A stretch of DNA of 64,000 nucleotides from Amylibacter marinus. Its GTDB lineage: Bacteria; Pseudomonadota; Alphaproteobacteria; Rhodobacterales; Rhodobacteraceae. The notes beneath the pieces are model-generated. The model saw only the letters and a list, made by a program, of their open reading frames with translations. It had not been told where the DNA came from and did no database searches. Shown piece by piece: positions 9,801 through 34,577 of this stretch (position 1 is the stretch's first letter; every line of letters begins with the position of its first letter). The stretch is from assembly GCF_030160015.1 (NCBI RefSeq), contig NZ_BSNN01000002.1, forward strand, positions 248,001 to 312,000, read 5' to 3'. A program made the translations under genes and the position numbers.

Positions 9801-10615
9801 GCCTGCTGATATCTGCGGTGCTTTCGCACGGGGCAGAGCAGCTTGGCGATGCCATTGATGCCGAGATCCTTTTGGCAGAGGCATTGGGGATCGCGCGTGA
9901 CCGCCTACGCCTATATCCCGACCAAGTGGTTTCTACCGACCAAATGGCAAAATTCAACAGGTTCCTACAGGCGCGGATGCTGCATCAGCCGGTGTCCCAG
10001 ATCATCGGCCACCGCGATTTTTGGAAACATCGGTTTATTGTAACCCCAGATGTGTTAGACCCGCGCCCCGATACAGAAACGCTGGTCGAACAGGCCCTTG
10101 GGCTGGCGCCTAAAAACCGTATCTTGGATTTGGGAACCGGTTCTGGGTGCATCGTGCTCAGCCTGCTGGATGAATGGCAAAATGCGACAGGGGTTGGTGT
10201 TGATATCAGCACCGCCGCCCTAAAGGTCGCAAAACAGAATGCCACGAACCTAGGCGTTACCGATCGTATAGAGCTGGTTGAGGGGGATTGGTTCGCGCCG
10301 CTGTCAGATCAGTTTGATCTGATCGTTAGTAACCCGCCCTATATCACCGCCCAAGAAATGCAGCACCTAGACGCGGATGTGCGCGACTGGGAGCCGCGCA
10401 TTGCCCTAACACCAGAGGGCGATGGGCTGGATGCATACCGTATTATCTGTGCCCAAGCAGGGGCATACCTGCAATCGTCAGGGCATTTGGCCGTTGAGAT
10501 AGGCCACCAGCAGGGGGCAGCAGTTGCCCAGATGATGTCGCTTGCGGGTTTTGCAGACATCCAAATTATACAAGATTTAAACCGCAAGGATCGCGTGGTT
10601 ATCGGCGTTATTTAG
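9797..10615 (+). CDS. prmC: Release factor glutamine N5-methyltransferase
   Basis: PrmC (HemK) methylates the glutamine of the GGQ motif of release factors with S-adenosylmethionine. The 272-residue protein has the N-terminal helical domain and a Rossmann methyltransferase domain with [16 protein letters not shown] (SAM motif I) and N179-P180-P181-Y182, the NPPY motif that holds the target amide. It overlaps prfA by ATGA, so the two are translationally coupled. The following 172 bases are non-coding. Confidence 0.95.
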
Positions 10616-26445: not shown

Positions 26446-26522
26446 GGGCCTGTAGCTCAGTTGGTTAGAGCAGAGCGCTCATAACGCTTTGGTCGCAGGT
26501 TCGAGTCCTGCCGGGCCTACCA
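26446..26522 (+). tRNA. tRNA with CAU anticodon (elongator Met, or Ile2 if lysidinylated)
   Basis: The cloverleaf folds fully: acceptor GGGCCTG/CGGGCCT, D arm GCTC/GAGC, anticodon stem GAGCG/CGCTT with loop CTCATAA, T arm GCAGG/CCTGC, discriminator A and an encoded CCA (26520-26522). The acceptor ends in a G1-U72 wobble. CAU is read by elongator tRNA-Met and, after C34 modification, by tRNA-Ile2. From sequence alone I cannot separate them, though a free initiator tRNA is excluded by the normal D arm. It marks the left border of the accessory lasso region. Confidence 0.93.
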
Positions 26523-26622: not shown

Positions 26623-27273
26623 ATGAAAAATACCACCAAGCCCATTCAGCCCCCCATAATTATCGTATCTGGACTACCAAGAAGCGGGACGTCTCTAATG
26701 ATGCAGATGCTAGATGCTGGTGGGGTTCAGGTGTTAAGCGATGGTGTGCGACGCGCGGACCAAAGCAACCCAAAGGGTTATTTTGAATGGGAACCGATCA
26801 AAAAGCTGGTGAAGGACACCACCGTGATCCGCGCAGAAATAGCCGCGGGCAGGGTTGTGAAGGTAATTTCTACATTGCTGCCAAGGCTTCCCAAAAAATA
26901 TGACTACAAGGTTCTCTATATGCAACGCGATATCGGCGAGGTTATTCAGTCTCAGCAGAAAATGTTGACGGACACAGGGCAAAATATTGGCGCGCAAGAC
27001 GCTGATATATCAGCGAAATTTCAAGCACATGATGCAAAGGTGCGTGCTTGGCTAACGCGCGCGCCCCATATGCAGGAATTGTTTGTGAATCACAAAGATC
27101 TTCTGACTGATCCAGAACGTCAGGTGGCCAAAATCGTCTCTTTTCTGGGCCCCGAGGCATTGCCCCAGCGCGATCGCATGGCGGCGGTAGTAGACCCTAG
27201 GTTGTATCGCACCAAAATACAAAAGCCTGTGCGCGGCCCGTTGGGTCTATTCGCAATAAAACCACCCACCTAG
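26623..27273 (+). CDS. Sulfotransferase-like P-loop protein at the edge of the lasso cluster
   Basis: This 216-residue protein has an N-terminal PAPS/P-loop motif, IIIVSGLPRSGTSLMMQML (about residues 12-30), as in bacterial sulfotransferases. A central LYMQRDIGEVIQSQQKML corresponds to the 3'-phosphate-binding strand-helix, and the late segment is HKDLLTDPERQVAKIVSFLG. The substrate is unknown. Being next to the lasso genes it might sulfate the peptide or an envelope glycan, but co-regulation is not evident: it ends convergently with, and overlaps by 27 bases, the minus-strand oxygenase gene. The ATG at 26623 is preferred over a TTG two codons upstream. Confidence 0.75.
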   Translation: MKNTTKPIQPPIIIVSGLPRSGTSLMMQMLDAGGVQVLSDGVRRADQSNPKGYFEWEPIKKLVKDTTVIRAEIAAGRVVKVISTLLPRLPKKYDYKVLYMQRDIGEVIQSQQKMLTDTGQNIGAQDADISAKFQAHDAKVRAWLTRAPHMQELFVNHKDLLTDPERQVAKIVSFLGPEALPQRDRMAAVVDPRLYRTKIQKPVRGPLGLFAIKPPT

Positions 27274-27963
27274 GGTATAGCGCGCCAAGCCCTCGGGCAA
27301 ATTGGCGACAGGTTCGATATGATGCTTGTCATGGGCCGTTACATCAAACAGCACCAAGCTGTTAAACGCGGGCATAAGGCGCTGCACCTCCTGACCCTGT
27401 GCATTGATACATAGAGCGCCCCCATGATCCCTATGCCACCCCGGTGAAAGATACAGGATATAGGCGATCTTTCGCCCTGATCTACGGTCATCATGCGGTT
27501 TTAGATAATGGCGGCTGTCTAATCGATGTGCCAGGGGTGCTGTGGTTGCGTCAAGGGCGCTAGACGTCACCTGACCAACATATGCACGAAAATCTTCGCC
27601 GAATAAGAACTTTTTGAACCTTAAATAGGTCAAGAAACTGGGGCTTAATCCGCAATCCGGCTTGGTGCCATTTAGCATTTCATAATAGAAAAACCGATCA
27701 TTCTCTGGTGCGTTTGACCATTCCTGCATATCTGTACGGTGTGATTTTTTTGAATATAGCCCATAAATCGGATCAAAGATTGCTTGTTCGGTTAAAAAAT
27801 GTGCCAAGGAATTCACCACAGTTGGGTCTAAAAAATCGTGGATCTGAATCACGCCCAAGGCATTGGATTGAAACTGTGAAACATAGGCGTGATGGACTGC
27901 GGGCCCAAGATGGGTGGCATTCATGAATTTGCGCAATTCATTCGTGGCAATAGTGAGTTCCAT
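27247..27963 (-). CDS. Fe(II)/2-oxoglutarate-dependent oxygenase (prolyl-hydroxylase-like)
   Basis: This 238-residue double-stranded beta-helix oxygenase has the facial triad H157-x-D159 (LKPHDDRRSG), a distal His at H215 (DKHHIEPV) and R228 (ARYTLGGWF), which would hold the 2-oxoglutarate carboxylate. YILYLSPGWHRDHGGAL is a typical core strand pair. The enzyme should hydroxylate a peptide or small molecule. It is divergent from the PqqD-like gene across a 136-base region, the usual sign of a shared regulon, so the lasso precursor is a plausible substrate; this is inference. It is not closely similar to the second oxygenase at 28387. Confidence 0.78.
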   Translation of the reverse strand: MELTIATNELRKFMNATHLGPAVHHAYVSQFQSNALGVIQIHDFLDPTVVNSLAHFLTEQAIFDPIYGLYSKKSHRTDMQEWSNAPENDRFFYYEMLNGTKPDCGLSPSFLTYLRFKKFLFGEDFRAYVGQVTSSALDATTAPLAHRLDSRHYLKPHDDRRSGRKIAYILYLSPGWHRDHGGALCINAQGQEVQRLMPAFNSLVLFDVTAHDKHHIEPVANLPEGLARYTLGGWFYCE

Positions 27964-28041
27964 AACGGTCTCCAGTGTTATTGGTTCGGGTCAATCTACA
28001 TCGAACATAGCGCTATGCAAGGTCTGGAATGCATGGGTGAA

Positions 28042-28070
28042 TTGACAGGCCTGTAACTAAGCGATAATCC
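28042..28070 (+). promoter_or_regulatory. Candidate sigma-70 promoter of the lasso operon
   Basis: A perfect TTGACA at 28042-28047 is followed by a 17-base spacer and TAATCC (28065-28070); GATAAT two bases earlier gives a 15-base spacer. It lies 30 bases before the PqqD-like start and points into the operon. The match is by eye only. Confidence 0.5.
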
Positions 28071-28099
28071 TGTGAATACAACTATTAGGGTCTCAGAAT

Positions 28100-28390
28100 A
28101 TGACACAGATTTCCGGTCGAATCTCGATCTCAGAGAAGGCCTTGATGGTCGACCTTGAAAACGAGGCAGTTATTTTGAACCTGAATAACGAACGATATTA
28201 TGGCCTTGATGATGTCAGCAAAAATTTCTGGCATTGGTTGAACGAATTCAAGGATGTTGATCAGGTTCTTCATCATGCGGTTGATGCCTATCAGGTCGAA
28301 GAAGAGGTTATCCGCAAGGATCTTGGGGGCTTCTTGCTAGAGCTATCCAAGGCTGGGTTGATCTCTTTTGACGGTGAGCAGACCTCTTGA
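28100..28390 (+). CDS. PqqD-like leader-binding protein (RiPP recognition element, lasso B1)
   Basis: This 96-residue stand-alone PqqD-fold protein has an N-terminal beta-hairpin MVDLENEAVILNLNNERYYGLDDVS, in which the NxxxYYGLD pattern is diagnostic, followed by a winged-helix-like helical half (VIRKDLGGFLLELSKAGLI). In lasso systems the B1 protein binds the YxxP leader of the precursor and presents it to the B2 protease. It is the first gene of the plus-strand operon. Its TGA overlaps the TTG start of the oxygenase gene, indicating coupled translation. Confidence 0.9.
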   Translation: MTQISGRISISEKALMVDLENEAVILNLNNERYYGLDDVSKNFWHWLNEFKDVDQVLHHAVDAYQVEEEVIRKDLGGFLLELSKAGLISFDGEQTS

Positions 28391-28989
28391 GCATAGACCT
28401 ACTTCGCAAGCTTGGCGTCTATATTGATACGGATTTCCTAACACCGACCCAATGCCAAAACCTATGCCAAGAAATTCAAAAATCCTCTTTTGCCGAGGCC
28501 AAGGTCTATGATGCCGATACCAAATCCAGCACCAAGGATGATGCATTGCGTCAATCGCTCTTTGGTACAGTGTCTTCACAGGCAGATAAAGAAATTCGCA
28601 AAAAAATCATGGGTCTGCGCACGGATCTAGAGCACCATTTCAACGAACAATTCGATGCGATTTTCGAAGCCCCAAAGTATCTGGCCTATGACACAGGTCA
28701 TTTTTTCGGGGCGCATACAGATGATCAATTGGGCCGCAGGATCAATATTTCGATCTATTTAAATGACGAAACATCCCAAGAGAATACGCAGAACAACAGC
28801 TATTGTGGCGGGTCGTTGAAAATTTACGGATTGCTTGATAACCCGGCTCTGAAAGATTGGGGCGTTTCACTTACAGGTGCACAGGGGCTTTTGGTTGCCT
28901 ACCGCGCGGACCTGCTACACGAGGTTACCCCCGTCTTGTCTGGAAGCCGCTATGCCATTGTCTCGCGATTCCTAAAGCCGCGCAAATGA
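28387..28989 (+). CDS. Fe(II)/2-oxoglutarate-dependent oxygenase inside the lasso operon
   Basis: This 200-residue cupin-fold oxygenase has the facial triad H110-x-D112 (GAHTDDQ) and H178 (LLHEVTPV), plus R188 (SGSRYAIVSRF) for 2-oxoglutarate, a complete prolyl-4-hydroxylase-like signature. The start is TTG, overlapping the PqqD-like TGA, and its end overlaps B2 by ATGA, so it is embedded between the leader-binding protein and the leader peptidase. That location makes the lasso precursor or mature peptide the most probable substrate. Fe/2OG hydroxylation of a lasso Asp is known, as I recall, from the canucin system. The target residue here is unknown; the conserved Asp, Pro and Tyr of the core are candidates. 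Confidence 0.85.
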   Translation: MSIDLLRKLGVYIDTDFLTPTQCQNLCQEIQKSSFAEAKVYDADTKSSTKDDALRQSLFGTVSSQADKEIRKKIMGLRTDLEHHFNEQFDAIFEAPKYLAYDTGHFFGAHTDDQLGRRINISIYLNDETSQENTQNNSYCGGSLKIYGLLDNPALKDWGVSLTGAQGLLVAYRADLLHEVTPVLSGSRYAIVSRFLKPRK

Positions 28990-29411
28990 CACTTGCACGT
29001 ATCAAAATGGCGGTTGTCATAATACAAAACATTCTTTTGGTTGTCCTTGTGGAATTCAGCCTAAGGATCATCGGAATAAAACGCACGTGGAAAATCCTAG
29101 AGCGGTGCCTGATCAAAAAACGCATATCCCATGATGATGACCAAGAGCTGAAAAACAGCCTCGCTGGGTTGGCAAATGCCATGAAACGATCCCCGTTCAA
29201 GGGAAAGTGCCTGGCGCGTTCTCTGGTCTTGTGGTGGCAGTTAAAACGCCGAGGGATTTCATCTACCCTGCACATCGGTGTGCAAAGTAGAAAGATAATG
29301 CGCGCCCATGCTTGGGTGCAATATGGTGATCGTATATTAAATGCTGGCCCCAATGTGCACAGCCGATATCGCGCAATGGCGCAATTTAACAACCCGAAAG
29401 AGCTAGGATGA
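28986..29411 (+). CDS. Lasso peptide biosynthesis B2 protein (leader peptidase, transglutaminase fold)
   Basis: This 141-residue protein matches the transglutaminase-like core of lasso B2 proteins. The Cys nucleophile is C75 in FKGKCLARSLVLWWQLKRRG, the His is H108 in RAHAWVQYG, and an acidic or Asn third residue lies near GDRILN (115-119). B2 cleaves the leader after the PqqD-like protein has bound it, freeing the amine used for macrolactam closure. A hydrophobic N-terminal helix (VVIIQNILLVVLVEFSL) is typical of short B2 proteins. Both ends overlap neighbours by ATGA (oxygenase before, cyclase after). The start at 28986 is clear. Confidence 0.92.
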   Translation: MTLARIKMAVVIIQNILLVVLVEFSLRIIGIKRTWKILERCLIKKRISHDDDQELKNSLAGLANAMKRSPFKGKCLARSLVLWWQLKRRGISSTLHIGVQSRKIMRAHAWVQYGDRILNAGPNVHSRYRAMAQFNNPKELG

Positions 29412-31279
29412 GCGGAATAGTTGGCCTTTTCCAATTTGAAAACAAAGATATAGATCAGACCGTTTTGGCGGCCATGATGTCCACGCTTCGGCGCCAAGGC
29501 CCCGATGCTCAGGCCTATTGGATGCAGGGAAATGTAGCCCTTGGACATACCTTATTGGGCAGTACGCGCTGCTCGTTTCGTGAACAACAGCCCGCGACAC
29601 GTGATCAACAGGTCTGGATTTCCGCCGATGCCCGCATCGATGATCAGGCCACACTCAGAACAAAATTAGCGCAAGAGGGGATCCAAATAGAGAGTGACGC
29701 CACAGATGACCATTTGATTCTGATGGCCTACGGGTGCTGGGGGACGGATTGTCTGAACCATTTGATCGGCGATTTCGCCTTTGTTTTGTGGGATCAACGC
29801 CGTAAAATCATGCTTGCCGCCACCGATCATTTCGGGGTTTCACCGCTCTACTATACTGAGCGGCAGGGTGGGTTTGGGATTAGCAATAATCTGGCCTGTT
29901 TGCGATTGCACCCCGAAGTCTCTGATCGCTTAGATGAACATACTATCGGCGACTATCTTTTGTATCGGATGAACCACAATCCGTGTTCTACGACTTTGGC
30001 TGATATTAAAAAATTGCCAGCTGGGCATCGAATTATCGTGACCGATAATAGCGTCAAGGTTGATCGCTATTGGTCTGCCCCAACTCCCAATTATATTCGC
30101 CGATCCGAGGCCGAGCAGGCGGAGATGTTCAATCATCTGTTCACCGCCGCAGTTTCTGATCGCCTGCGTGCCGATAGCGCTGGCACGCATATGAGCGGCG
30201 GCATGGATTCCACATCGATTTCGGCCGTGCTGTCAGAGCTGAAGGCCCAAGGGAAGACCAAGGATATCCAAGCCTATAACCACGCAAGCCATCTAGACGA
30301 TCATAACCTTGAGCAAGGCTTCGCAGAAGAAACCGCCCAGAAGCTGGGCCTGCCATTGCAGGTGCATCGCGGGGATCGCGAAATTGGGCTAAACCAGCTG
30401 TTCAATCCAGCCGATTTCACACCAGAGCCCAGCGTCATGCAGGTAAACAGCGCGCGTTATCACATATTCACCGACTGCTCTGCGCGTGGGCGCACCCTCT
30501 TTGCGGGGTTCGGGGGCGATCCGCTTTTGGCAGCAGACGCTAGTTATTGGGCCGCTCTGCGCACATCTGGCCAAATTAGACACTATATCGCCGACATCGG
30601 GTTACAGCTGCGCATACAAGGCCGTCTGCCGCGGGCACTGTTGCCTGACCGCCTAAACAAATACAGCAAATCCATAAAGGGTTATCGGCAGCAGCCAATC
30701 CCAAGCTGGATTGGTGCATCCTTCGTAAGCAGAACAGGCCTGAACAACCGGCACCGCGAGCTGTTCCAAGAGGCCGAAATCTATCCGGATCAGCGCATCG
30801 GCATGACCAAGCACGCGCTATGGCGGCGCATTTTTGAATGGCACAGCCCCGCCGTGTCTTTGCACCCCCTAAAGGTCAGGTTTCCATTCTTTGATGTGCG
30901 CCTGCTGGAATGGGCCCAAAGTGTCCCGCAGTACCCTTGGTTTGAAAAGAAATACCTGCTGCGCAAGATAATGCAGGGGCGCTTGCCACAGTCGGTCTTG
31001 AATCGTGCGAAAACCCCGATGCCTGGCAGTGTCATGGTGGCCAATGCCAAACGTGAAGGTCTGCCAAAAATGTACGCCGAGTTGGCCGTTGATCCCATAC
31101 TGTCGGATTATGTGGATATTGGCAAAATATCCGCTATGGTTTCCGAACCAGAGCATTTGACAGCAGTTCATGCGAAGAGTATCGTCAGGTTATCATCATT
31201 AGCGTATTGGTTGCGCTTGAATTTATCAAATAGGAACGTAACTAATGCCAAGCTTTCAGAATTCCAACGACGCCAATAA
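29408..31279 (+). CDS. Lasso macrolactam synthetase (asparagine-synthetase-like cyclase)
   Basis: This 623-residue class II glutamine-amidotransferase/Asn-synthetase homologue has an N-terminal Ntn domain (MSGIVGLF, DARIDDQATLRTKL, GDFAFVLWDQRR) and a C-terminal adenylating domain with the PP-loop S263-GGMDS-268. The residue after Met is Ser instead of the glutaminase Cys2, so ammonia release from glutamine is probably lost, as in lasso cyclases that use the peptide amine. It should adenylate an Asp/Glu side chain of the core and close the ring. Its last 35 bases overlap the first precursor gene in another frame. Confidence 0.92.
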   Translation: MSGIVGLFQFENKDIDQTVLAAMMSTLRRQGPDAQAYWMQGNVALGHTLLGSTRCSFREQQPATRDQQVWISADARIDDQATLRTKLAQEGIQIESDATDDHLILMAYGCWGTDCLNHLIGDFAFVLWDQRRKIMLAATDHFGVSPLYYTERQGGFGISNNLACLRLHPEVSDRLDEHTIGDYLLYRMNHNPCSTTLADIKKLPAGHRIIVTDNSVKVDRYWSAPTPNYIRRSEAEQAEMFNHLFTAAVSDRLRADSAGTHMSGGMDSTSISAVLSELKAQGKTKDIQAYNHASHLDDHNLEQGFAEETAQKLGLPLQVHRGDREIGLNQLFNPADFTPEPSVMQVNSARYHIFTDCSARGRTLFAGFGGDPLLAADASYWAALRTSGQIRHYIADIGLQLRIQGRLPRALLPDRLNKYSKSIKGYRQQPIPSWIGASFVSRTGLNNRHRELFQEAEIYPDQRIGMTKHALWRRIFEWHSPAVSLHPLKVRFPFFDVRLLEWAQSVPQYPWFEKKYLLRKIMQGRLPQSVLNRAKTPMPGSVMVANAKREGLPKMYAELAVDPILSDYVDIGKISAMVSEPEHLTAVHAKSIVRLSSLAYWLRLNLSNRNVTNAKLSEFQRRQ

Positions 31280-31421
31280 TACGCCCTGTGAAACAAACAT
31301 TGGTGATTATCGCGCGCCGACCCTAACAGACTATGGCCCGGCCAGCGAGCTGACCGAAACCATTTCTGGAAGACGTGGGTTTGACGGTGGTGATACACCT
31401 TCGTCATATACCGCTAGTTAG
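31245..31421 (+). CDS. Lasso precursor peptide A (58 residues)
   Basis: The ATG at 31245 lies inside the 3' end of the cyclase gene, about ten bases after AGGA. Residues 22-37 hold the lasso-leader pattern Y-x-x-P-x-L-(x3)-G-(x4)-L-T (YRAPTLTDYGPASELT). The C-terminal region is TETISGRRGFDGGD then TPSSYTAS, ending in serine. If Thr37 is the -2 Thr of the leader, the core is residues 39-58 and D47 is core position 9, a canonical ring-closing position. If Thr39 is -2, the core starts at S41 and D47 is position 7. The first 20 residues differ from peptides B and C. The gene is too short for ordinary gene callers. Confidence 0.88.
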   Translation: MPSFQNSNDANNTPCETNIGDYRAPTLTDYGPASELTETISGRRGFDGGDTPSSYTAS

Positions 31422-31435
31422 TTAAAGGATATCCC

Positions 31436-31600
31436 ATGCCAAAAATAGAGAACACCGAGCCACAGGCCGTAGCGAATACGCCTGCCTACCACGCGCCGAC
31501 CCTAACAGACTATGGCCCGGCCAGCGAGCTGACTGAAACCATTTCTGGACGCACTGGTGATGACGGTGGTAATACACCTTCGTCATATACCGCTAGTTAG
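31436..31600 (+). CDS. Lasso precursor peptide B (54 residues)
   Basis: The ATG at 31436 follows AAAGGAT at a 6-base spacing, a better RBS than that of peptide A. The leader motif YHAPTLTDYGPASELT spans residues 18-33; the C-terminal part is TETISGRTGDDGGN then TPSSYTAS, ending in serine. With Thr33 at -2, the core is residues 35-54 and D42/D43 are positions 8 and 9; with Thr35 at -2, D43 is position 7. Compared with A, the ring part changes from RGFDGGD to TGDDGGN while leader and tail are conserved, as expected for a diversified core between fixed recognition parts. Confidence 0.9.
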   Translation: MPKIENTEPQAVANTPAYHAPTLTDYGPASELTETISGRTGDDGGNTPSSYTAS

Positions 31601-31614
31601 TTAAAGGATATCCC

Positions 31615-31779
31615 ATGCCAAAAATAGAGAACACCGAGCCACAGGCCGTAGCGAATACGCCTGCCTACCACGCGCCGACCCTAACAGATTATGGCCCGGC
31701 CAGCGAGCTGACTGAAACCATTTCTGGACGCACTGGTGATGACGGTGGGAATGTGCCTTCCTCCTATACTGCCAGTTAG
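31615..31779 (+). CDS. Lasso precursor peptide C (54 residues)
   Basis: This copy is nearly identical to peptide B. The same leader YHAPTLTDYGPASELT is followed by TETISGRTGDDGGN and VPSSYTAS, with one substitution (Thr47 to Val) just before the conserved Pro. Codons in the tail differ silently from B, so the duplication is not brand new and the peptide is under purifying selection. The same AAAGGAT RBS lies six bases before the ATG. It too ends in serine. Confidence 0.9.
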   Translation: MPKIENTEPQAVANTPAYHAPTLTDYGPASELTETISGRTGDDGGNVPSSYTAS

Positions 31780-31793
31780 TTCCAAGGTATCCT

Positions 31794-32007
31794 GTGGCGA
31801 AATCAGAGATCATCCTACCACAGGCCGCATTGAAAATCGCCGCCTAACATGGCCACCGATGGCACAACCCGCAAGCCCATGGAAACCCGGGCGCGAAGCG
31901 CAGGGGGTAACAGCGGTGGTATTCCCAACAGTTACTCCGCCAGCGAGTTTGAAAACTCGCCCATACGGTTTCACGATTGGCTCACCCATTCAAAAGCACA
32001 GATGTGA
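31794..32007 (+). pseudogene. Decayed fourth lasso precursor copy
   Basis: The spacing and start resemble B and C: GTG at 31794 opens with AKSEIILPQAA, matching PKIENTEPQAV of peptide B, but a TAA at 31845 ends it. In the +1 frame an ORF (ATG 31849 to TGA 32007, 52 residues) then carries NSGGIPNSYSASEF, clearly aligned with DGGNTPSSYTAS, but the stop after the final Ser is lost and about 20 foreign residues follow. The YxxP leader and ring acceptor are not recognisable. The kinase ATG follows the TGA directly, so the remnant may still be translated and serve coupling. Confidence 0.75.
31943..31960 (+). promoter_or_regulatory. RNA hairpin between precursor genes and kinase gene
   Basis: GCGAGTT-TGAA-AACTCGC is a perfect 7-bp stem with a tetraloop (8 bp if a 2-base loop is allowed) inside the decayed fourth copy. 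There is no T-run. It could shield the 3' end of a processed precursor mRNA or reduce read-through into the kinase, so the precursors are made in excess of the enzymes. The structure is seen; the role is inferred. Confidence 0.55.
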
Positions 32008-32985
32008 ATGACGTATAAATACACCGCTTATGGCATTGAAATCCAATCAACCAAATCGATTGCACTGCTTCCCAAAGGTGATCTAGAGGCAGCGGTTGAT
32101 GTCCGTATTGATTTCGCACCGCCAGATGTGCTTGAAAACACCACGCTTTGGCGGGATTTTTTGGAATTTAACCCCACCTCAAATGATGGCCCCATAATCC
32201 AAAAGCAGGATGGGCGGATAAAGCTGCGCTATTCACGCGATACCAATACCTTCGTAGAATTTGTGATCTCTGCAACATATGATCACATACGGGTACATCA
32301 AACATCTGATTTACCAGAGGGGGATGCTCTGTCATTCTTGATCGGGCCTATATTGGGGCTGATATGCCGCTTGCGAGGACGGCCCTGCCTACACGCCAGC
32401 GTTTTATCGATAAAGGATCAGGCCTTTGCCTTGGTGGGGCCAAAACGGGCAGGTAAATCAACAACCGCCGCCGCTCTTCTCAAAATGGGTGCGCAATTGG
32501 TCGCAGATGATATTGCCGTTCTTGAAAACAATAGCGGTCAATATCAGGTGTCTCCAGGATATCCCTTTACGCGCTTGACCCAGCAAACCATTGATCAGCT
32601 TGGGTATTCTGCGAATGGAACCCATCGTGTCCTGTCTGTTGGTGACAAACGGTATATCTCCATCGAACAGGCCAATCTCGGCGGTTTTCAGGCGAAAACA
32701 GTACCGCTTAGGGCTGTATATGCCTTATCACGACGCCCCAAAGACACAGGATCTGTGCACATAAATCCGCTATCCGAGGCAAATGCAGTGCGCCATTTGA
32801 TGGCTCATTGCTATGCACAGCGGCTCATGGATACCGCAATGCAAATTCAGGATTTCGCAGATATGACAACCCTTATCCAGCACTGCCCCGTTCGATCCGT
32901 AAGCACCCCAGATGACCTTAGCTTTCTAGACACTCTCTCCACAAACATTCTCGATGATTTCCAGGGCCAGTATTCCTATGCATGA
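32008..32985 (+). CDS. HprK-like kinase, probably phosphorylating the C-terminal Ser of the lasso precursor
   Basis: This 325-residue protein has an HPr kinase/phosphorylase C-terminal-type fold. The Walker A motif is G144-PKRAGKS-151 within ALVGPKRAGKST, followed by GAQLVADDIAVLE, the Asp-containing strand of HprK, and a later VPLRAVYALSRRP. The N-terminal 130 residues have no clear domain. Homologues in lasso clusters such as paeninodin phosphorylate the C-terminal serine of the precursor. All three intact precursors here end in serine, which fits. HPr itself is not encoded nearby. The start directly follows the stop of the degenerate precursor, and the stop overlaps the next gene by eight bases. 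Confidence 0.85.
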   Translation: MTYKYTAYGIEIQSTKSIALLPKGDLEAAVDVRIDFAPPDVLENTTLWRDFLEFNPTSNDGPIIQKQDGRIKLRYSRDTNTFVEFVISATYDHIRVHQTSDLPEGDALSFLIGPILGLICRLRGRPCLHASVLSIKDQAFALVGPKRAGKSTTAAALLKMGAQLVADDIAVLENNSGQYQVSPGYPFTRLTQQTIDQLGYSANGTHRVLSVGDKRYISIEQANLGGFQAKTVPLRAVYALSRRPKDTGSVHINPLSEANAVRHLMAHCYAQRLMDTAMQIQDFADMTTLIQHCPVRSVSTPDDLSFLDTLSTNILDDFQGQYSYA

Positions 32986-34402
32986 CACGCCAAATCAGAA
33001 GCAAAACATCATCCTTGTTACAGTGGATTGCTGGCGCGGGGATCATGTTGGCATAAACAATCCCACAGGCCCCAAAACGCCGCATTTAGATCGGTTTGCA
33101 AAACAAGGCATCAATTTCCCCAATGCCTACACCTGTGGAGGGTGGACCAAGATCGCGATGACAGCCTTGATGTCATCGACCTATGGGTCGATGTATGGAT
33201 TTGCACAGGGGAAAATGTCTGATCAACGCCCCTTACTTGCCGAGATCCTACAGGCGCAGGGCTATGAAACCGCGGGTTTCACCACCAACCCCGTTTGTGG
33301 CACGGGGGGTGGTTTTCAACGTGGTTTTGAAACCTTTCGCGATCTCCGCCCAGGCCTAAAGGGCAAGTTGCTGCGTTATCCGCGTCTTGATAGAATTTAC
33401 ACCCGCCTAGCCACCAGCGCAAAGGTAAGGCGCGCGCTGGCGCAGGTGGGCATAGGCTATTTGCCGATCAATCCGACCCTGTTGGCCGATGATGTGGTTC
33501 AAATAGGCCTTGATTGGCTGAACCAAGAGCACGACCAGCCCTATTTTCTGTGGCTACACTTCATGGATTTACACTGGCCCTATTTTTCAGCGGATCGGCG
33601 CAACACCCGCAAAGACCGCGAAGAGATCTGGCAAGATCGCACCGCATGGCAAAAGGTTCGCAAACAGCGCGGCAAAGGATACCCCGGCGATAGCCGCGCA
33701 GAGCGCTGGCGTCAGTTGTACAAAGAAGAGGCAGAGGGTCTTGATACATCTTTGGGTGTTTTGTTCGATGCCATTGATGCCCGTGCGGATCGCGATAACA
33801 CCAATGTCATTCTGTCGGGTGATCATGGCGAGGAACTATATGAACACGGATCTTGGGCCCACTCGTGGAACCAGCTGCATAAAGAGGGCACCAACGTCCC
33901 GCTAATTATTCGGCCAGCAAAATCCAGATCGGCCCAGAGCATAGAGCGCCCGGTCAGCCATATCGACCTTGCCCCCACGATTTTAGATATGGTCAACGTG
34001 CCCAAACCCGACTTGATGGAGGGCGACAGCCTGCTGCCCCTTGCATCATCTGCGGCAGATATCATGGAAAAACCCATCTATTCTGAAATGTTTGGCCATC
34101 ACAATTCCTATATCTATCGCCTGTCGATTACTTATCAGGGGCACAAATACATCTATGATGGAGACCGTGATACCTGCTATCTATTTGATCTTAAACAAGA
34201 TCCAGATGCCCTGAAGGATATCTATTCGCATGATCACGACCTCTCACTTAGCTTTGACAAACTGCGCCTTTCGCATGTGAGCAAAGGCTTGATCACGGTT
34301 CTAAAATCCGATGCCCCTATTCTGGGGGGGGATATTTCCTACGATCTTGATGCAGATCCCAAGGTGGTCGCGCAACTGCGCGCACTTGGCTATCTAGACT
34401 GA
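32978..34402 (+). CDS. Alkaline-phosphatase-superfamily hydrolase (sulfatase-like, Thr nucleophile)
   Basis: This 474-residue metallohydrolase has metal ligands D17 ([12 protein letters not shown]) and D282-H283-G-E ([13 protein letters not shown]). The position of the catalytic residue reads YTCGGWTK (51-58). It lacks the C/S-x-P-x-R formylglycine signature of true sulfatases; by alignment with related WT-type enzymes, T57 would be the nucleophile, as in phosphodiesterases and phosphotransferases of the superfamily. It could hydrolyse or transfer phospho-groups, possibly acting on the kinase-modified peptide. No signal peptide is visible, so it is cytoplasmic. The start at 32978 overlaps the kinase end by eight bases, so it belongs to the operon. 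Confidence 0.8.

Positions 34403-34500: not shown

Positions 34501-34577
<77 letters not shown>

Follow-up and report, generated by a model that had tools for sequence, protein, structure and literature searches.

A candidate gene cluster for multiply modified lasso peptides in Amylibacter marinus

Background

What might be made by a block of eleven intact genes in which the genes of lasso peptide biosynthesis stand beside those for a kinase, two iron- and 2-oxoglutarate-dependent (Fe/2OG) oxygenases, a sulfotransferase and an enzyme of the alkaline phosphatase superfamily, and is such a combination new? The block lies in the genome of Amylibacter marinus (Rhodobacteraceae), between a tRNA-Met and a tRNA-Arg gene in a stretch of 64,000 nucleotides (positions 248,001 to 312,000 of contig NZ_BSNN01000002.1, assembly GCF_030160015.1), which we call the window and whose coordinates are used throughout. 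A preliminary description of positions 26623-34402 had named the genes, all of which are in place with their frames intact. Read from left to right, they are the sulfotransferase gene ST (+ strand), the oxygenase gene OGx2 (- strand) and a + strand operon with the order B1-OGx1-B2-C-A1-A2-A3-decayed precursor copy-K-S, in which C is the cyclase gene, A1 to A3 are precursor genes, K is the kinase gene and S is the gene of the alkaline-phosphatase-superfamily enzyme.

We consider it likely that the block is a functional cluster, probably acquired horizontally, for several related lasso peptides that carry multiple modifications. It can be described as a phosphorylated, paeninodin-type lasso cluster with added enzymes, the chemistry of S, OGx1, OGx2 and ST being predicted. 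What is new in the material searched is the five-enzyme combination, and S. Kinase-bearing lasso clusters are frequent among the genomes searched, and here a different enzyme follows the kinase; one oxygenase gene is enclosed between B1 and B2, both of which it overlaps, and the second comes from the OGFOD1/TPA1 family. The cluster is a compact pathway that can be tested heterologously and a place to look for new peptide chemistry.

The lasso core

Four kinds of gene carry the lasso assignment. B1 (28100..28390, +, 96 residues) encodes a PqqD-type leader-binding protein, or RiPP (ribosomally synthesized and post-translationally modified peptide) recognition element, that scores 48.8 bits with PF05402 (cut-off 23.4) and 49 bits with the NCBIfam model lasso_PqqD_Bac, under the cut-off of 80 for that model. 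B2 (28986..29411, +, 141 residues), a transglutaminase-like leader peptidase, reaches 81.9 bits with lasso_biosyn_B2 (NF033537, cut-off 33) and 67.8 bits with PF13471. The asparagine-synthetase-like cyclase C (29408..31279, +, 623 residues) scores 100.9 bits with PF00733 (cut-off 21) and 307 bits (E 2.8e-91) with lass_lactam_cya (NF033535), the latter below the cut-off of 525. Its N-terminus reads MSGI, with Ser in the place of the glutaminase Cys2, which is absent.

In a tree of 99 cyclase-like proteins, which was a quick one, made without bootstrap, and from which cyclases shorter than 540 residues (that of locus L116 among them) were left out, the window cyclase forms a set of three rows with those of two related loci, L045 and L046 (Shimodaira-Hasegawa-like approximate likelihood ratio test, SH-aLRT, 98). 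This set lies inside a set of 15 rows (SH-aLRT 100), 11 of them with lasso genes detected and four without, and stands apart from a group of 28 rows whose loci showed no detected lasso genes, "no lasso" meaning here that fewer than two of B1, B2 and K were detected and that some of these may still be lasso loci.

The three intact precursors that had been recognised earlier stand, and a fourth, decayed copy can be added after A3. A1 (31245..31421, +, 58 residues) has the core TISGRRGFDGGDTPSSYTAS by the standard register, A2 (31436..31600, +, 54 residues) the core TISGRTGDDGGNTPSSYTAS, and A3 (31615..31779, +, 54 residues), a tandem copy of A2 179 bp further on, the core TISGRTGDDGGNVPSSYTAS; the fourth copy (31783..32007, +) aligns with A1-A3 and its frame is interrupted. 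The profile lasso_leader_L3 (NF033521, cut-off 19) was run on A1 and A2, whose leaders score 19.4 and 19.9 bits, and the leader of A3 is identical to that of A2. All three precursors carry, by sequence, YxxPxL at positions -17 to -12 and Thr at -2, both of which are features of lasso leaders (PMC10368454). In the standard register each core is 20 residues long, begins with Thr, and has Asp at position 9, one Pro (14), one Tyr (17) and a C-terminal Ser; all three precursors end in SSYTAS. The register could move by one or two residues. Some relatives of the same cyclase clade carry T-x-T ahead of a DG motif with an acid at 9 or 10, and a cut two residues further on, which would give a Ser1-Asp7 ring, is therefore possible. 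The [M+H]+ values calculated for the lasso peptides are 2013.926 (A1), 1925.847 (A2) and 1923.868 (A3) in the standard register, and 1799.794, 1711.715 and 1709.736 for cores beginning with Ser. In several precursors of related loci with canonical leaders (L081, at 11867; L047; L048; L147; L046), the first acid within the range 7-10 is residue 10, which may mean that the cut site is shifted or that the ring has ten residues.

Nearly every defining lasso sequence feature that was tested is present, the start of the core being ambiguous, and B1, B2, the cyclase and the precursors almost certainly make up an intact lasso core, as had been proposed. That the genes belong instead to some other PqqD-dependent peptide system, or to asparagine or amidotransferase metabolism, is hardly credible: the cyclase score under the lass_lactam_cya cut-off would fit such a reading, but both the domain searches and the tree contradict it, B2 and two leaders scoring above lasso cut-offs and the cyclase grouping with the cyclases of lasso loci rather than with the 28-row group.

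Related loci

The cyclase has few close relatives. At E 1e-40 it was found in two of 195 relatives (its own genome and one other, at 31% identity) and in seven of 385 genomes of the class, its own included (best other 33%), and B2 matches came from 25 of the 390 genomes searched in the order, again with its own included. A cyclase scan of one genome per species gave at least 80 loci, among whose listed matches the best was 32% identical over full length and none exceeded 36% over partial segments; over its length, the window cyclase shares no more than 33% identity with any other that was found.

Two series of loci from these searches were compared with the window, 35 (L045-L079) and 80 (L080-L159). 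Those in which phmmer detected at least two of B1, B2 and K were counted as lasso loci, 63 in all and 61 after removal of the duplicates L080 (the same as L045) and L109 (the same as L048); the B2 query for these searches began four codons inside the gene. K is present in 57 of the 61, a proportion to be read with the fact that the selection of loci favours the kinase. Searches with phmmer (E 1e-3) gave no homologue of OGx1, OGx2 or ST in either series, and none of S in the 35; among the 80, S has a homologue in L145 alone, a locus in which B1, B2 and K were not detected. The distribution of ST, OGx2 and S is narrow, as is that of the core.

A precursor gene at the 3' side of the cyclase had been put forward as an unusual arrangement. 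It is the commonest one, seen in 26 of the 41 loci with a recognised precursor (26 of 40 without the duplicate L109), with ten loci having the precursor first and five having it after B1, and gene order was accordingly rejected as a novelty. These 41 loci were collected with a pattern that required Thr at -2, hence no conservation of that residue is drawn from them. In a separate set of 48 candidate precursors from related loci, Thr(-2) is found in 47, the pattern in this case having also permitted Ile, Val, Ser and Leu, and one or two of the rows (L072 and the second row of L116) look spurious.

The kinase

K (32008..32985, +, 325 residues) was identified as an HprK-type lasso precursor kinase from HprK_rel_A and Hpr_kinase_C matches, motif and fold. 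Its motif comprises H129, GPKRAGKS and DD, and H129, G149, K150, S151 and D168 are invariant in an alignment of 30 kinases (K and 29 kinases from lasso loci), in agreement with the lasso kinase motif of PMC10368454. An AlphaFold model (predicted local distance difference test score, pLDDT, 90.5) has phosphoenolpyruvate carboxykinases (PEPCK) as its best PDB matches, followed by HprK/P structures, and the modelled fold is that of the HprK/PEPCK group. The earlier identification of an HprK-like kinase is thus borne out by motif and fold, though the score with Hpr_kinase_C is 23.9 bits against a cut-off of 33.3. K very probably phosphorylates the precursor. The C-terminal Ser that serves as acceptor in the paeninodin type is present in all three precursors, and among the related kinase loci at least one Ser-ending precursor was found in 25 of 38 (24 of 37 without the duplicate L109).

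Phosphorylated lasso peptides of this kind have known proteobacterial members (PMC8498205, PMC9266682). The window shares B1, B2, C, the kinase and C-terminal-Ser precursors with the paeninodin/SyanK type (PadeK, ThcoK, SyanK); unlike that type it adds two Fe/2OG oxygenases and S, and its order is C-A-K-S.

The enzyme encoded after the kinase

S (32978..34402, +, 474 residues) overlaps K by 8 nucleotides and holds the position directly 3' of it. It scores 152 bits with PF00884 (cut-off 25), and its PDB matches are sulfatases and phosphonate monoester hydrolases. The Asp and the DHG of the metal site are kept (VDCWRGD, SGDHGE), and S can be placed by its sequence in the alkaline phosphatase superfamily, with a sulfatase-fold domain and its metal ligands. 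The superfamily assignment of the preliminary description, which had spoken of a phospho- or sulfo-hydrolase, holds, and the sulfatase motif is absent: where CxPxR would be expected S has WTKIAM, with Thr at the position of the nucleophile (formylglycine) and neither the Pro nor the Arg. An ordinary type I (formylglycine) sulfatase was ruled out by this T-K-I-A-M in place of C/S-x-P-x-R. A CxPxR motif with Cys is present in three proteins of the window's class, encoded in two genomes other than this one, and in one protein from Runella. It is a general rule of the superfamily that members with a Thr nucleophile act on phosphoesters, and the Thr of S therefore indicates phosphoester chemistry rather than that of a formylglycine sulfatase.

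S was found in three of 101 genomes at E 1e-20 (its own and two at 28-29% identity), and a viral scan with S found no relative. Thr at the nucleophile position recurs in three S-like proteins encoded on a plasmid of Halopiger xanaduensis (pHALXA01, 12000-45000; L174), which we regard as the nearest parallel to the pairing of K and S, although a suggestive one only. This plasmid bears an archaeal lasso locus with genes for a PqqD protein, B2, cyclase, a kinase-like protein, a nucleotidyltransferase and an ABC transporter, and the three sulfatase-like genes stand among glycosyltransferase genes, with 4 to 14 kb separating them from the gene of the kinase-like protein.

What S might do can be approached through the enzymes that accompany other lasso kinases. 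PsmN, which with the kinase PsmK belongs to the pseudomycoidin system, is presumably a member of the NTP_transf_5 family. Genes of this family, whose product is the likely glycosyl-phosphate partner of the kinase, were found in 41 of the 57 kinase-type lasso loci, across phyla, which suggests that phosphate-linked glycosylation is widespread. Pseudomycoidin and the window have in common a kinase plus a second enzyme that possibly acts on the phosphorylated Ser; in contrast to pseudomycoidin, the 64-kb window has no NTP_transf_5 gene, and S is of another family. PsmN is a nucleotidyltransferase-like enzyme that glycosylates the phosphoserine of pseudomycoidin (PMC9266682), and pseudomycoidin is the only case in which the available portions of PMC8498205 and PMC9266682 describe a step that follows on a lasso phosphoserine.

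We lean slightly towards an action of S on the phosphorylated peptide, as predicted from its sequence and place. A more elaborate proposal, that the C-terminal phosphoserine is further built upon by the Thr-nucleophile enzyme S in replacement of the glycosyl-phosphate step of NTP_transf_5, which would be a novel kind of lasso phospho-tailoring, and that the same peptide is hydroxylated by two oxygenases, one of them of the ribosomal prolyl-hydroxylase type, and may be sulfated, is speculative and, taken as a whole, unlikely. We also find it rather doubtful that S serves reversal or self-protection, dephosphorylating the peptide, or taking phosphate off polyphosphate chains built by K, and so controlling activity rather than taking part in maturation. 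Lasso kinases can polyphosphorylate (PMC9266682), the overlap of S with K is consistent with such a role, as is the lack (by eye) of a signal peptide, and the Thr nucleophile would suit it equally; against it, the kinase-type lasso loci among L045-L159 contain no S homologue, and the one parallel is that of the archaeal plasmid, with its S-like genes at some distance from the kinase-like gene.

The oxygenases and the sulfotransferase

OGx1 (28387..28989, +, 200 residues, TTG start) is a PKHD-type Fe/2OG oxygenase gene that overlaps B1 and B2 by 4 nucleotides each. The protein scores 40.3 bits with PF13640 (cut-off 27) and 35.9 bits with the PKHD-type NCBIfam model, below that model's cut-off of 143, and matches PDB 3dkq at E 0.0013; its catalytic residues are HTD, the distal His and Arg. 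OGx2 (27247..27963, -, 238 residues), of the OGFOD1/TPA1 type (PF13661/PF13640), scores 63.4 bits with PF13661 (cut-off 27) and has HDD, the distal His and Arg. Its match to OGFOD1 (PDB 4nhx, E 4e-18) extends over the catalytic half, with weaker matches to TPA1 and to HIF-type prolyl hydroxylase; compared with the OGFOD1/TPA1 prolyl hydroxylases, OGx2 is a single-domain protein and its gene stands beside a lasso operon. Both proteins have the HxD...H with distal Arg expected of Fe/2OG oxygenases and are assigned to them by these residues.

The 4-nucleotide overlaps at B1/OGx1, OGx1/B2 and B2/C and the 8-nucleotide overlap at K/S mean that OGx1 and S are integral parts of the operon. That OGx1 acts on the peptide is predicted to be quite probable. 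An Fe/2OG enzyme in a lasso cluster, likely assisted by B1, is also described for canucin A, with its Asp beta-hydroxylase CanE; the likeness is one of description, and the window differs in a core without a C-terminal Asp and in having two oxygenases and a kinase.

ST (26623..27273, +, 216 residues) encodes a sulfotransferase that would use 3'-phosphoadenosine-5'-phosphosulfate (PAPS), with 48.2 bits for PF13469 (cut-off 27) and the 5' phosphosulfate-binding loop GLPRSGTS. It was found in one of 101 genomes at E 1e-10, its own, and it weakly matches SULT and protein-tyrosine sulfotransferases (E 0.013-0.1), matches that do not fix its substrate. OGx2 is divergent from the operon, starting 136 bp from B1, and ST is convergent on OGx2, the 3' ends of the two genes sharing 27 bp.

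This layout bears on whether all of the enzymes belong to one pathway. The OGFOD1 family hydroxylates a ribosomal protein, and OGFOD1 is the nearest solved relative of OGx2; the two relatives of OGx2 found in the class are not close to lasso genes. With ST and OGx2 both outside the operon, it could be that the product is a phosphorylated and hydroxylated lasso peptide only, made by B1, OGx1, B2, C, the precursors, K and S, and that ST and OGx2 came along as passengers in the same insertion and act on other substrates. We allow this a considerable, though lesser, chance. ST and OGx2 are, like the core, nearly or wholly absent from relatives, they lie within the same tRNA-bounded block, with OGx2 close to B1, and kinase-type lasso clusters that begin with a sulfotransferase gene are already on record for Firmicutes (PMC8498205). 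On balance we incline to the view that OGx2 would act on the peptide; that its target is Pro14 is a more tentative suggestion, which we rather doubt. For ST the prediction of an action on the peptide is evenly poised.

Oxygenases have company of their own kind among kinase-type loci. The idea that an oxygenase and a kinase never occur together in a lasso locus was ruled out by six loci (L047, L048 and L086 of the Reyranella type, with L104, L116 and L046), a lower bound that comes from a motif filter, a few Pfam checks and similarity searches; a PF13640/PF00884 search of the 49 genomes behind 50 loci could be tied to the lasso locus for L116 only. L046 has a PF13640 protein beside the cyclase, PhyH proteins are encoded beside K or B1 in L047, L116 and L104 (by Pfam) and in L048 and L086 (by similarity), and L116 encodes three 2OG proteins, of which one scores under the Pfam cut-off. 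Oxygenase plus kinase is thus a recurring theme, found mostly in the window's cyclase clade, to which L046, L047, L048 and L086 belong through the 15-row set, and no description of it was found among the listed matches from the open-licence literature searched. The oxygenases of the six loci, PhyH or PF13640 proteins, differ from those of the window in showing no phmmer similarity to OGx1 or OGx2, and no homologue of S or ST was found in these loci. The PhyH genes (L047, 12221-13009; L048, 12384-13172; L086, 6761-8629; L116, 4010-4951; L104, 14259-15248) recur by kinase-type lasso clusters of Reyranella and others, divergent from the kinase gene or near B1.

The claim of an unusual set of tailoring genes can now be divided. 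The combination is indeed unusual: it was not found in the 35 and 80 loci, and no description of it was found among the listed matches from the open-licence literature searched. Several of its parts are less so, kinases being present in nearly all of the lasso loci, oxygenases in six, and sulfotransferases in published clusters (PMC8498205).

A proposed order of modification

B1 would hold the leader and present the linear precursor to OGx1 and K. In other systems B1 enhances the action of both kinase and 2OG enzymes on the linear precursor (PMC9266682, PMC10368454), and because of this precedent OGx1 and K would be expected, by analogy, to act on the B1-bound linear form, OGx1 hydroxylating the core and K phosphorylating the conserved C-terminal Ser20. 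S may then work as a phosphoester hydrolase or a phosphotransferase on the phosphorylated peptide, taking the part that falls to NTP_transf_5 in many related clusters. OGx2 might hydroxylate Pro14 or a nearby residue, and ST might sulfate a hydroxyl such as that of Tyr17. B2 would cleave after Thr(-2)-Glu(-1), and C would close the macrolactam between the new N-terminus (Thr1 in the standard register) and Asp9.

Several points weigh against our reading of the locus as a functional cluster for multiply modified lasso peptides. No dedicated exporter was found in the block. Thr1 is an unusual first residue for a lasso core, the related precursors have their acid at 8, 9 or 10, and the possible Ser1-Asp7 ring adds to this uncertainty of register. 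The kinase scores 32.8 bits with HprK_rel_A, again below the cut-off, and so joins the cyclase among proteins under the thresholds of their own models; 13 of the 38 kinase loci have no Ser-ending precursor. S-like enzymes are common outside lasso loci, and 16 of the 57 kinase loci are likewise without NTP_transf_5 in the stretch examined, and without S. OGx2 was found in three of 385 genomes, its own and two at 25-26% identity that have no lasso genes nearby, and both OGx2 and ST lie outside the operon. The decay of the fourth precursor copy belongs here as well.

Borders and origin of the block

The block is bounded by tRNA-Met (cat; 26446..26522, +) on the left and tRNA-Arg (ccg; 34501..34577, -) on the right, both found by ARAGORN and both with their 3' ends towards the block, which has a G+C content of 50.5% against 52.4% in the remaining window. 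A purM match was found in 29 of 33 genomes of the genus, and in all 14 of the stretches fetched from these 29 tRNA-Met is beside or near purM. In six relatives that were compared further, a gene matching window positions 48.7-50.1 kb, by eye a sensor kinase gene, stands between tRNA-Met and tRNA-Asn. On the right side, an acrylyl-CoA-reductase-like gene has tRNA-Arg(ccg) near it in four of six relatives examined, and in one of the genomes (G022) this gene lies about 193 kb from purM. The tRNA-flanked neighbours of the cluster thus stand apart in relatives, and the cluster is therefore at the junction of two segments: the block sits at a rearrangement point between two tRNA genes, and it was probably acquired horizontally. 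Over window positions 26446-50271, tRNA-Met and the sensor-kinase-like gene by tRNA-Asn are about 22 kb apart, whereas they are within a few kb in the six relatives; between them in the window are the lasso block and several other genes.

None of the block genes was seen to encode an integrase, and no shared att-like repeats of at least 12 bases were found at its edges. In a megablast search of the block against plasmids, the best 20 of 36 records matched solely at the two tRNA genes. A promoter scan gave five sites against 9.9 expected, and 19 terminator-like sites were found against 8.4 expected, all 19 of them inside genes.

A rearranged neighbourhood, together with the decayed precursor copy, might be taken to mean that the cluster is a decaying relic of an insertion at a rearrangement point and makes nothing. 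This we judge improbable, the eleven other frames being intact, the catalytic motifs examined kept, the gene overlaps tight, and the three intact precursors having a common leader motif and differing cores.

The earlier statement that the block has no ABC exporter is correct, and export by an ABC transporter encoded elsewhere in the genome may be envisaged. One example is at a second lasso-type B2 gene (L051: contig C7, 24001-44000; B2 at 9814-10308), where B1, cyclase, kinase and precursor were not recognised and which looks like an exopolysaccharide locus (Polysacc_synt_2, Wzz). The B2 gene there overlaps an ABC transporter gene and stands near an NTP_transf_5 gene.

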